A stretch of DNA of 64,000 bases, taken from Candidatus Poribacteria bacterium (GTDB lineage: Bacteria; Poribacteria; WGA-4E; WGA-3G). The position numbers were made by a program, and so were the translations under genes. Within the stretch, counting starts at the first letter, position 1. Every line of letters begins with the position of its first letter. The stretch is from positions 62,001 to 126,000 of the forward strand of contig JAPPII010000074.1 of the NCBI GenBank assembly GCA_028820845.1, written 5' to 3'. Shown piece by piece: positions 22,584-57,937 of this stretch. Under the pieces are notes generated by a model. It was not told the origin of the DNA, ran no database searches, and saw nothing but the letters and a program-made list of their open reading frames with translations.

Positions 22584-22757
22584 ATGCGAACTTTCAAGAT
22601 CAAGATACCATATTCGGAGCAGTTGGATGTATTGAATTCTGCTTCTGCGTCGGTTTGGGGTGAATGTCTCAAGCTTCAGGAGATGTGGTGTTATGCTCAT
22701 GGTTCTTGGGGTTATTTTCCGAATATTAAGGAATGTGAATTATGGATAAAAGATTAA
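22584..22757 (+). pseudogene. N-terminal fragment of TnpB in the other frame
   Basis: A 57-codon ORF starts at ATG 22584 with MRTFKIKIPYSEQLDVLN, the usual opening of a TnpB wedge region, and stops at 22755-22757. The main tnpB frame begins at 22742 in the -1 frame relative to this ORF and overlaps it by 16 nt. The most likely explanation is a single-base frameshift; a programmed slip or separate start is possible. Confidence 0.55.
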
Positions 22758-23773
22758 CAAAGTCACAGCCTTTGCATTCACAGAGTATTCAGGAGGTGCG
22801 TTCGCGGTATTTCAAGAATTGGCAAGGTTTTCGTGTATTGCGTCGTAATGGTGATAAGACTGCGAGGCCTCCGTATAAAAAGAAACGTTTTCAAACAACC
22901 ACTTGGAAGAAGTCAGCGATACGTTTCAAAGAGGGTTTGTTTGGTAAGCAGGTTGTTCTATCTAATGGCAGGCGTGGTAAGCCTTTGGTGGTGGATTTGC
23001 CAAAGCGGTTTGATATAAAGAATATTCCTGCTATCATCAATCTTGTGTATAATAGGGGTCAGTATGAATTGCATTTTGTTTACAAAACTGATAAAGCTGT
23101 AAAAACAGAAGCGAAGGGTATTGTTGGCGTTGACATTGGCGAAATACACCCTATGGTAAGTCATGATGGCATGGTTACTGAAATCTTTAATGGACGGTAT
23201 ATTAGAAGTTTATACCGGTTGAGGAATAAGGTGATTGCGTCTATGGACAAGAAGATAGATAGGTGTGAGCGTCATAGCAACCGCTGGTGGCACTTAGTAA
23301 AACACAAATGGAAACACATCAGAACAATTGACAATCAAATCATGGACGGCTTGCATAAACACACTACAAAGTTTGTGAAGTTGTGTGAGTCACGGGGTAT
23401 TGGTACGATTGTTCTTGGTGATTTGACGGGTATACGCAATAATATCAAGGCGAGGAAAAAAGAACGTCAAAAGTTGCATCAGTGGGCTTTTGGCAAAATT
23501 ACGCAAATGATTACCTACAAAGCAAAGGCTTTAGGTATCAAGGTGGAATTAATTAATGAGGCGTATACTTCGCAGACTTGCTTGAATTGCGGCAAGAGGA
23601 ACAAACCACAAAAGCGTTCTTACAAGTGCAAATGTGGATTTGAACATCATCGCGATGGCGTTGGTGCGACTAATATAAGACAAAAGTATCTTGGGTGTTT
23701 CGGCACCCCAGTAGCGGCGACTATGGCATCGCCCGTTGGTATTCGCTTAGAATGCCGACGTTGCTCCGCCTGA
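22742..23773 (+). CDS. tnpB: TnpB-like RNA-guided nuclease (IS605/IS1341 group)
   Basis: A 343-residue TnpB core. RuvC-I Asp131 lies in GIVGVDIGEIHP; the zinc ribbon is CLNCG (Cys280, Cys283) with CKCG (Cys296, Cys298); the last RuvC Asp305 is in HHRDGVGATN. At the usual RuvC-II Glu site the sequence is VLGDLTG, with Gly226-Asp227; a Glu273 in NEAYTSQTC could instead supply the acid, a rearranged site known in some TnpB groups. The N terminus lies in another frame (22584-22757). No tnpA transposase gene is nearby. TnpB cuts DNA guided by a short RNA from the element's right end. Confidence 0.85.
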   Translation: MDKRLTKSQPLHSQSIQEVRSRYFKNWQGFRVLRRNGDKTARPPYKKKRFQTTTWKKSAIRFKEGLFGKQVVLSNGRRGKPLVVDLPKRFDIKNIPAIINLVYNRGQYELHFVYKTDKAVKTEAKGIVGVDIGEIHPMVSHDGMVTEIFNGRYIRSLYRLRNKVIASMDKKIDRCERHSNRWWHLVKHKWKHIRTIDNQIMDGLHKHTTKFVKLCESRGIGTIVLGDLTGIRNNIKARKKERQKLHQWAFGKITQMITYKAKALGIKVELINEAYTSQTCLNCGKRNKPQKRSYKCKCGFEHHRDGVGATNIRQKYLGCFGTPVAATMASPVGIRLECRRCSA

Positions 23774-55811: not shown

Positions 55812-56093
55812 TTAGGCAGCAGCGTCGCGAAGCTTCTTACCAGCTTTGAAGACAGGGACGGTCTTCTCAGGAATACTGAGCGGTTCGCCAGTCTGTGGAT
55901 TGCGACCTGTACGGGCTGGCCGAACTTTGGCTTCAAATGTTCCGAAACCGATCAACCCAACGGAATCGCCGTTACTCAAAGCATCGCAAACAGTCGCAGC
56001 AAAAGCGTCAACAGCGGCTGTTGCCTCTTTCTTGCTAAGACCCGTCTGTTCGACAATACTGCTGACGACATCGTTCTTCATTAATTTTGCCAT
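55812..56093 (-). CDS. hup: HU family DNA-binding protein
   Basis: A 93-residue nucleoid protein: MAKLMKNDVVSSIVEQTGLSKKEATAAVDAFA, GLIGFGTFEAKVRPARTGRNPQTGEPLSIPE, and FKAGKKLRD. The GRNPQTGE motif is the DNA-binding arm of HU. It binds and bends DNA as a dimer. GAGG precedes the ATG at 56093; a consensus promoter lies upstream at 56220-56248. Confidence 0.95.
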   Translation of the reverse strand: MAKLMKNDVVSSIVEQTGLSKKEATAAVDAFAATVCDALSNGDSVGLIGFGTFEAKVRPARTGRNPQTGEPLSIPEKTVPVFKAGKKLRDAAA

Positions 56094-56219: not shown

Positions 56220-56248
56220 ATTATACTATACAAATATAGATATGTCAA
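56220..56248 (-). promoter_or_regulatory. consensus promoter for HU gene
   Basis: On the minus strand, TTGACA (56248-56243), a 17-bp spacer, and TATAAT (56225-56220). It lies ~125 bp before the HU ATG. Confidence 0.8.
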
Positions 56249-56255
56249 GATGAAT

Positions 56256-56420
56256 AGCACCCACAACCTGAAGATTGGGGCTTCGGCTTCGTAGCAACTG
56301 CGGTTTTCTCAAAGAGTCAACCGTCTTAGTATCGCTCCACCCGTAGGCAATTCCCCTATACCCTGAAAGAAATAGGTAAGGGCATATCGTGCGGAAACTT
56401 TCACGGCTATTCCTGCCTAC
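56256..56420 (-). other. structured non-coding segment downstream of the pseudoknot RNA
   Basis: On the minus strand, GTAGGCA/TGCCTAC (56420-56414 with 56349-56343), CGGTT/AACCG around a CTC-AAA-GAG hairpin (56323-56301), and a final CCCCAA...TTGTGGG hairpin (near 56280-56260). The 3' end with CTACGAAGCC and its hairpin resembles right-end RNA of IS605/IS1341 elements. No tnpB remains are visible, so the identity is tentative. Confidence 0.4.
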
Positions 56421-56606
56421 AAAAAAAAAGGAGAGTAGCAGTAATGCAACGTGCTGGCTTTCACCTCCGCTCCGAAACTTACGCGTGAACTGCTACCGAT
56501 ACATGTTTTTTACAAGGTCTCACTTGACACCCGCCACACACCATACGACTGGTGAGGATAGGACTCTCTCAAATGAGAGAGGTCGTATTCCTATCCAGCA
56601 AGTGTA
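56421..56606 (-). ncRNA. candidate structured RNA with 5' pseudoknot and terminator
   Basis: Transcription should start near 56605 from the promoter at 56612-56640. GGATAGGA/TCCTATCC (56596-56589 with 56563-56556) encloses CTCTCTC/GAGAGAG with a 4-nt loop, and ATACGAC (56588-56582) pairs with GTCGTAT (56549-56543), so the helices form a pseudoknot. CACTTG/CAAGTG (56604-56599 with 56526-56521) closes the domain. A further 8-bp helix, GTAGCAGT/ACTGCTAC (56496-56489 with 56442-56435), is followed by CTCC and T9 (56429-56421), an intrinsic terminator. No match to tmRNA, RNase P, 6S or SRP RNA motifs was recognised. Length ~185 nt. Confidence 0.55.
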
Positions 56607-56611
56607 ATATC

Positions 56612-56640
56612 ATTATACTACATTTTTAGGTGAATAACAA
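56612..56640 (-). promoter_or_regulatory. promoter of candidate structured RNA
   Basis: TTGTTA (56640-56635), 17-bp spacer, TATAAT (56617-56612) on the minus strand. Confidence 0.65.
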
Positions 56641-56935
56641 GTTTATTTTTCAATAACGCCATTAGTTTCCGCCTACATCCCGCAAACGAAAGCATAGAAT
56701 TCGATGCCGAATGTTAAAATTAATACCATAGATTGCGGAATTTGTCAAATTTTTTCTTTACAGCCATAAATCAAATTTTTAGCGGAATGATTGATTTTCA
56801 ATAGTTCCTTTGCCTGCCGATATTGAGTGGCTTGACCGAAATATTTGCTTTAAGCGGTACGTTTGTGGTAAAATTAATAAAATATAGTTTACTGAAGATT
56901 CCGCTTGAGTAACACAATAAAGGAAAATATCAAAA
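56641..56935. other. AT-rich intergenic region upstream of asd
   Basis: About 295 bp, AT rich. No gene seen; a weak TAAAAT-like -10 near 56868-56873 may serve asd. Confidence 0.4.
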
Positions 56936-57937
56936 ATGCATGAAAGTTATCGTGTAGCAGTTGTAGGCGCGACCGGTGCTGTCGGCAACACGATGTTGCA
57001 AATTTTAGAAGAACGAGGCTTCCCTATTGCCTCCTTGAAACTTCTGGCATCGCACCGTTCCGCTGGTGAGATTCTGTCCTTTAAAGATGCCCCAATTATC
57101 GTTGAAGAATTAACGCATGATTCCTTTGGAGATGTGGATGTCGTCTTTTCATCGGCGGGTGGGTCTGTCAGTCGCGAGTTCATTCCGACAGCTGTCGAAA
57201 AAGGAGCACTCGTCATTGACAACACAAGTGCCTTCCGTATGGATCCAGACACACCATTGGTTGTCCCTGAAGTTAATATGGATGCTGCACGGACACATAA
57301 CGGACTCATTGCCAATCCGAATTGTTCCACCATTCAGATGATGGTAGCACTTAAACCAATTTATGATGCCGTTGGTATCAAGAGGATCGTTGTTTCGACC
57401 TATCAGAGCGTTTCTGGCAAAAGTGGACGCGCTGTTATAGAATTGGTTCAGCAAACAAAGGACGCTCTCGAAGGGATACCGGTTACTTTAGATAAATTTC
57501 CACACCAGATGGCGTTCAACGTCGCCTTTGATTGGCCCTTTTTAGATGGCGGGGACAATGAGGAAGAGGTCAAAATGATCAATGAGACTCGGAAAATACT
57601 CGCCGATGACACAATTGGGGTCTCTGCTACAACCGTTCGAGTCCCAGTCTTCTACGCACATTCCGAATCCATAAACCTTGAAACACACGGAAAACTCACC
57701 GCAGCTGAAGCGAGAGAATGTCTCGCCACTGCTCCGGGTGTGAAACTTGTGGATGATCCGAGCAATCAGCAGTACCCACTTGCTATAGATGCTGCAGGCA
57801 AAGATGATGTTTACGTAGGTAGAATCCGGGATGATGCCTCGATAGAAAACGGTTTGAATCTTTGGGTCGTTGCGGACAACTTACGGAAAGGCGCAGCCTT
57901 AAATGCTATTCAGATAGCTGAGAACCTGCTGTTATAG
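56936..57937 (+). CDS. asd: aspartate-semialdehyde dehydrogenase
   Basis: A 333-residue enzyme: reduces aspartyl phosphate to aspartate semialdehyde for lysine, threonine, methionine and diaminopimelate. Motifs are VAVVGATGAVGNTMLQIL (NADP binding), SSAGGSVS, IANPNCSTIQMM (active Cys), and VYVGRIRDD near the end. It is followed at 15 nt by mtnK and then a DnaJ-like gene, forming a probable operon. AAAGGAAA precedes the ATG. Confidence 0.95.
   Translation: MHESYRVAVVGATGAVGNTMLQILEERGFPIASLKLLASHRSAGEILSFKDAPIIVEELTHDSFGDVDVVFSSAGGSVSREFIPTAVEKGALVIDNTSAFRMDPDTPLVVPEVNMDAARTHNGLIANPNCSTIQMMVALKPIYDAVGIKRIVVSTYQSVSGKSGRAVIELVQQTKDALEGIPVTLDKFPHQMAFNVAFDWPFLDGGDNEEEVKMINETRKILADDTIGVSATTVRVPVFYAHSESINLETHGKLTAAEARECLATAPGVKLVDDPSNQQYPLAIDAAGKDDVYVGRIRDDASIENGLNLWVVADNLRKGAALNAIQIAENLLL

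Follow-up and report, generated by a model that had tools for sequence, protein, structure and literature searches.

Transposons of the IS200/IS605 group move as folded single-stranded DNA. Little is known of the control of TnpB expression or of the supply of omegaRNA. ORF-less derivatives of IS200/IS605 are termed PATEs (PMC3119063, PMC7290912), IStrons are described as a group I intron combined with an IS element (PMC4227781), TnpB is described as processing its own mRNA into omegaRNA (PMC10278001), and RAGATH-18 (RF03064) is given as the reRNA of IS607 TnpB (PMC11061315). No leader of the kind presented below is described in the published papers covered, which are part of the literature and weak evidence on this point. 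To our knowledge, no counterpart has been described for a conserved leader before tnpB that has both a pseudoknot and an alternative strand in tandem.

The window analysed here is a 64,000-nucleotide stretch of a Candidatus Poribacteria genome, in which the pseudoknot locus lies on the minus strand between hup (HU DNA-binding protein; 55812-56092, minus strand, counted from its ATG) and asd (aspartate-semialdehyde dehydrogenase; 56936-57937, plus strand). An IS200/IS605-type element, of a kind dispersed in multiple copies, has inserted at this locus. The element has no ORF, is approximately 460 bp (56256-56713, minus strand) and follows the sequence ATTTTAA, as judged from empty sites and dispersed copies. 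The hup-asd site is empty in 12 of the 17 aligned relatives, and the spacing of the two genes in relatives with an empty site is 445 to 471 bp (n=11), or 596 bp in the closest relative, compared to 842 bp in the window. Four further relatives have different elements between hup and asd after the same ATTTTAA (or ATATTAA/ATTAT). The gap is an insertion hotspot, with different IS605-type elements at one place (window 56251-56720; loci L237, L238, L239, and L242). The hup promoter, TTGACA-17-TATAAT (56220-56248, minus strand), now abuts the element, whose right tip appears to have been deleted along with roughly 110-150 bp of native flank. Having lost these, the window copy is probably immobile.

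The element begins with a hairpin at its left end, followed by a promoter and the pseudoknot; a further hairpin module then leads to the omegaRNA-like 3' domain. In the alignment of copies, the left end is an imperfect hairpin (56678-56702, minus strand), a decayed copy of AAATCCCCATGCTTTAGCTTGTGGGATG, which we take to be an IS605-type end. Copies of the element are found in 32 of the 98 related genomes searched, several per genome. All share the hairpin of the left end as well as the promoter and pseudoknot, followed by a swappable module, and their 3' segment ends in an IS605-like right end. Genome G018 has three copies that are 99% identical over approximately 483 bp, with unrelated flanks. 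The palindromic left and right ends are shared with autonomous tnpB elements, and Y1_Tnp genes are present in the same genome as the window. The region of the left end and promoter is 76% identical over 84 nt to the TnpB locus L062, and the right-end region is 90% identical over 73 nt to the sequence just 3' of the tnpB of this locus. The 3' domain (56256-56420, minus strand; core from 56341, with the right-end hairpin at its end, approximately 56281-56256) is homologous to the 3' end of tnpB and the guide scaffold, and its stems covary in homologues; the right tip is missing from the window copy. The covarying stems and the identity of up to 90% with sequence downstream of tnpB make this an omegaRNA-like domain. 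The ATG of the tnpB leaders has been exchanged in the ORF-less copies, which read ACC-ACT or ACC-TTG there and lack a tnpB ORF downstream; in the window, comparison with tnpB leaders places a TTG at the start codon position (56513-56515, minus strand), and the next codon is TAA. At locus L034, an element-type leader lies before a 151-codon open frame that is not TnpB and that has a signal-peptide-like start (MKFRLIALLIAV...); counted from where the element starts, this lies 84-536 bases downstream on the minus strand. A T-box leader (RF00230) is found near one ORF-less element (L013, 944-1223, minus strand).

The fold of the leader is compact. The earlier note had reported that, apart from a 4-nt loop, 41 consecutive bases (56556-56596) are paired, with an 8-bp helix around a 7-bp hairpin and a 7-bp strand that pairs outside it to give a pseudoknot. 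The pairing is as stated there, on the minus strand, and the arrangement is confirmed by covariation in homologues. Between 56596 and 56543, the 5' strand of P2 (GGATAGGA, 56589-56596) forms 8 bp with its 3' strand (TCCTATCC, 56556-56563), enclosing the 5' pseudoknot strand ATACGAC (56582-56588) and the 7-bp P3 hairpin CTCTCTC-ATTT-GAGAGAG (56564-56581) with its 4-nt loop ATTT, all assigned on covariation. The 3' pseudoknot strand, GTCGTAT (56543-56549), covaries likewise, making a pseudoknot of 7 bp. Two further helices extend the structure as first seen. P4, formed by CACC (56551-56554) and GGTG (56539-56542), surrounds the 3' pseudoknot strand, which thus lies within its loop; all 4 of its pairs have compensatory changes in element-type leaders. 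P1 pairs the extreme 5' end, ACACTTGC (56598-56605), with the first of two repeats, GCGGGTGT (P1a, 56527-56534), on the evidence of the fold and of P1a covariation in tnpB leaders, while the same 5' strand can instead pair with the second repeat, CAAGTG (P1b, 56521-56526). All of these features are on the minus strand. With the pseudoknot left out of the energy, the minimum free energy of the leader fold has a z of -4.1 and none of 200 shuffles is equally stable; its structural score is 25.7, against a maximum of 22.5 in 100 shuffled 400-nt regions. Together with the covariation, these values bear out the expectation that such pairing is unlikely by chance.

Compensatory changes support every helix of the leader. 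Among 26 ORF-less leaders, 98.8% of cells are paired and 20 of the 26 pairs show compensatory change; among 21 tnpB leaders, 92% of cells are paired, with equal support for P1a and P1b. For the pseudoknot, a search model built without it returned 105 matches, 89 of them distinct, and in these 89 homologues the pseudoknot pairs in 98.9% of 623 cells. Its covariation score is 0.79, compared to 0.15 when shuffled and no more than 0.10 when slid. The middle pseudoknot pairs are nearly sequence-free, showing that it is the pairing itself that is conserved. Covariation in homologues had been proposed as a check in the earlier note; helices and pseudoknot both covary, and a structured RNA with a pseudoknot is strongly supported, as are its own promoter and the lack of an Rfam match. 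Given the transposition of IS200/IS605 elements via folded single-stranded DNA, the fold might act in DNA during TnpA transposition rather than in RNA. This is very unlikely, since at non-Watson-Crick cells G.U far exceeds A.C (26:3 and 30:12, the cells not being independent), which indicates that selection acts on the RNA transcript, and the fold keeps its register with both promoter and start codon.

The promoter scan identifies a -35 box, TTGTTA (56635-56640, minus strand), and a -10 box, TATAAT (56612-56617, minus strand), separated by a 17-nt spacer, both conserved in the copies. The promoter was thus correctly recognised at the outset (56640-56612); it scores 10 of 12 and is kept in homologous copies, with 9 to 12 of 12 in all of the tnpB leaders and in all but one of the ORF-less copies. 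The -10 box is a near-constant 4 nt before the start of the aligned leader in homologues, and from this near-constant distance transcription should begin at P1. Downstream of the pseudoknot is module 2, a hairpin domain of approximately 64 nt with the loop AGGTGAAA (56434-56497, minus strand), whose outer and inner stems covary. The loop is conserved, and in other copies unrelated modules take the place of this one. The run of nine T (56421-56429, minus strand) is not conserved and is not a canonical terminator.

These features bear on the proposal that the pseudoknot belongs to a stand-alone small RNA gene of about 185 nt near hup and asd, ended by an 8-bp hairpin and T9. A stem of 8-9 bp and the T9 run do exist in the window copy, as does the promoter; the role assigned to them as a terminator is not sustained. 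The 8-bp stem is the closing stem of the approximately 64-nt module 2, TCTCC precedes the T9, the terminator scan made no call, and the T9 is unconserved. Moreover, the conserved unit of the homologous copies extends past the T9 as far as the right end, and the main context of the leader is tnpB. A stand-alone RNA is quite improbable for these reasons, the locus being a dispersed element whose leader is common to tnpB genes.

The source genome has 26 TnpB genes, and 23 of these have a strong promoter with the leader fold between it and the start codon (21 from the structural scan, plus L068 and L069, which were read by eye and are both in alignment A1). Of the three TnpB genes without a leader, at least two are truncated. 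The TnpBs with leaders fall into clusters with identity as low as 17%. In other genomes, 27 of the best 30 model loci have a TnpB ORF downstream, a few of these being short or cut by a contig end, and that of L085 lying further downstream. The pseudoknot is a 5' leader common to tnpB genes and ORF-less copies. Elsewhere in the window, the N-terminal frame of a TnpB-like ORF (22739-23773, plus strand) has apparently been lost, with the start in another frame, and no leader pseudoknot was seen upstream. Two left-end hairpins are interrupted by a short palindrome (around GAATCAACGGTATGAATGCC...GGCATTCCCCGG), and a variant of this repeat is downstream of a third tnpB (L010, L068, and L069). One Poribacteria genome, G039, has 66 TnpB matches.

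By model R1, the leader is found in 52 of 85 genomes of Poribacteria, which live in association with sponges. A sequence-pattern search across 84,980 species returned 110 stretches, and the 80 matches listed are all from Candidatus Poribacteria. The same fold with a different sequence is present at L272 and L278, which come respectively from a different family within the order and a different genus within the family; this means that the sequence model underestimates the spread. Outside Poribacteria, the leaders of three TnpBs from another lineage score at chance and the leaders of three plasmid TnpBs have no such fold by eye. Five other plasmid TnpBs are directly after, or overlap, an upstream gene, mostly the IS607 transposase, leaving no room for a leader. 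TnpBs were sought in viral contigs and none were found.

Searches of Rfam gave zero matches in the window region at E<=1, and the leaders were likewise unmatched in 20 loci of ORF-less copies and in 20 further loci, mostly tnpB. This agrees with the earlier reading by eye that there is no RNase P, tmRNA, 6S, or SRP match, and completes the Infernal/Rfam-type check suggested with it, the leader having no match to any Rfam family. Identity as a group I intron or IStron was also considered and set aside, with no Rfam match in the ORF-less-copy or tnpB loci. A compact nested pseudoknot within a TnpB element could be a self-cleaving ribozyme of a new fold, and the strand order of P2, pseudoknot, and P3 resembles that of P1, P2, and P3 in HDV, a likeness that is a lead and not a test. 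However, a ribozyme is very improbable. The same Rfam searches (window, 20 ORF-less-copy loci, and 20 further loci) gave zero ribozyme matches, the 3' pseudoknot strand is inside the P4 loop, unlike HDV, and a conserved unpaired catalytic core is absent across both leader groups. An HDV-like ribozyme in particular, with its nested double pseudoknot, catalytic C, and P1.1, was rejected, as the strand order differs and Rfam gives no match in these regions.

Binding of TnpB, or of its RNP, to the leader for autoregulation or processing, in the ORF-less copies as well, is also conceivable but unlikely. The leader is common to tnpB genes and to ORF-less copies bearing the omegaRNA domain, P2 and the stretch CCCA...GGGGTTAAA are conserved in sequence among tnpB-type leaders, and the processing of its own mRNA into omegaRNA is an established TnpB activity (PMC10278001). 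Against this, the sequences of P2 and P4 differ in the ORF-less group, and a single conserved protein contact is less likely where one fold serves TnpBs less than 20% identical.

The 5' end of the leader has a choice of partners. After P4 there is a tandem 7-nt repeat, each copy of which can pair with the 5' strand, as P1a or P1b, and both pairings are supported by covariation in tnpB leaders. Two partner sites of at least 5 bp are present in 12 of the 21 tnpB leaders and 10 of the 26 ORF-less leaders, compared to 2.3 expected per set; L061 and L076 have a single P1 3' strand each. A few bases separate the end of the second repeat from the tnpB ATG that follows. Two mutually exclusive P1 pairings in a leader position would suit a ligand-binding riboswitch for tnpB. 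That is nonetheless very unlikely, there being few invariant unpaired nucleotides and no Rfam riboswitch match, and the leader being kept in ORF-less copies.

The reading preferred here, with moderate confidence, is that the pseudoknot is a conserved 5' leader of a Poribacteria TnpB-transposon lineage, which locks the 5' end of the transcript and gates the tnpB start. At hup-asd it is carried by an ORF-less derivative that retains it together with the omegaRNA-like 3' domain. Most likely it would act in cis, sequestering the transcript 5' end, gating tnpB translation, or both. Transcription would begin at the P1 5' strand, as predicted from the promoter, and the leader folds, as the covariation shows, into P1-P2-P3-P4 with the 7-bp pseudoknot. 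Locking the 5' end in a helix may protect the long tnpB-omegaRNA transcript. The 5' end could pair with the first repeat or with the second, beside the tnpB start codon, and such a strand swap would gate access to the start codon while the 5' end stays paired. Where there is no ORF, the only effect of the leader would be on how stable the RNA carrying the omegaRNA domain is, or on how that RNA is processed, and TnpB made in trans could use it. As the fold, and often the repeat, persists in these ORF-less copies, translation gating is not its whole function, and the phasing of the fold to the ATG argues against a pure role in RNA stability. A 5'-end lock with an alternative strand fits both. 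More tentatively, this may be a new class of pseudoknotted leader that is standard in the TnpB-type transposons of one phylum, with a 5' strand switch, and with ORF-less copies delivering guide RNAs in trans. The leader would be a new RNA family for the catalogues. It is strongly covarying, present in dozens per genome, and a directly testable cis-element, and the leader-bearing ORF-less copies are a natural setting in which to test the supply of guide RNA in trans.

Compared with known IS200/IS605 transposons carrying tnpB and omegaRNA (reRNA), the Poribacteria elements likewise have ends that are imperfect palindromes, insert behind a short target rich in T and A, and carry a tnpB ORF with a putative guide scaffold overlapping its 3' end and the right end; what they add, between the promoter and tnpB, is the conserved leader with its pseudoknot and tandem alternative strand. 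RAGATH-18 matches weakly (27.1 bits, cut-off 44.9) beyond the 3' end of one TnpB gene, and is a guide RNA at the 3' end and not a leader. IStrons likewise have a structured RNA on a TnpB-type element, whereas there is no group I intron match here and the leader is only approximately 90 nt. Elements of the window type share with PATEs and other ORF-less derivatives their shortness, the lack of an ORF, the palindromic ends of the autonomous relative, and dispersal, but add a promoter of their own, a covarying leader pseudoknot, an extra structured module, and an omegaRNA-like domain.
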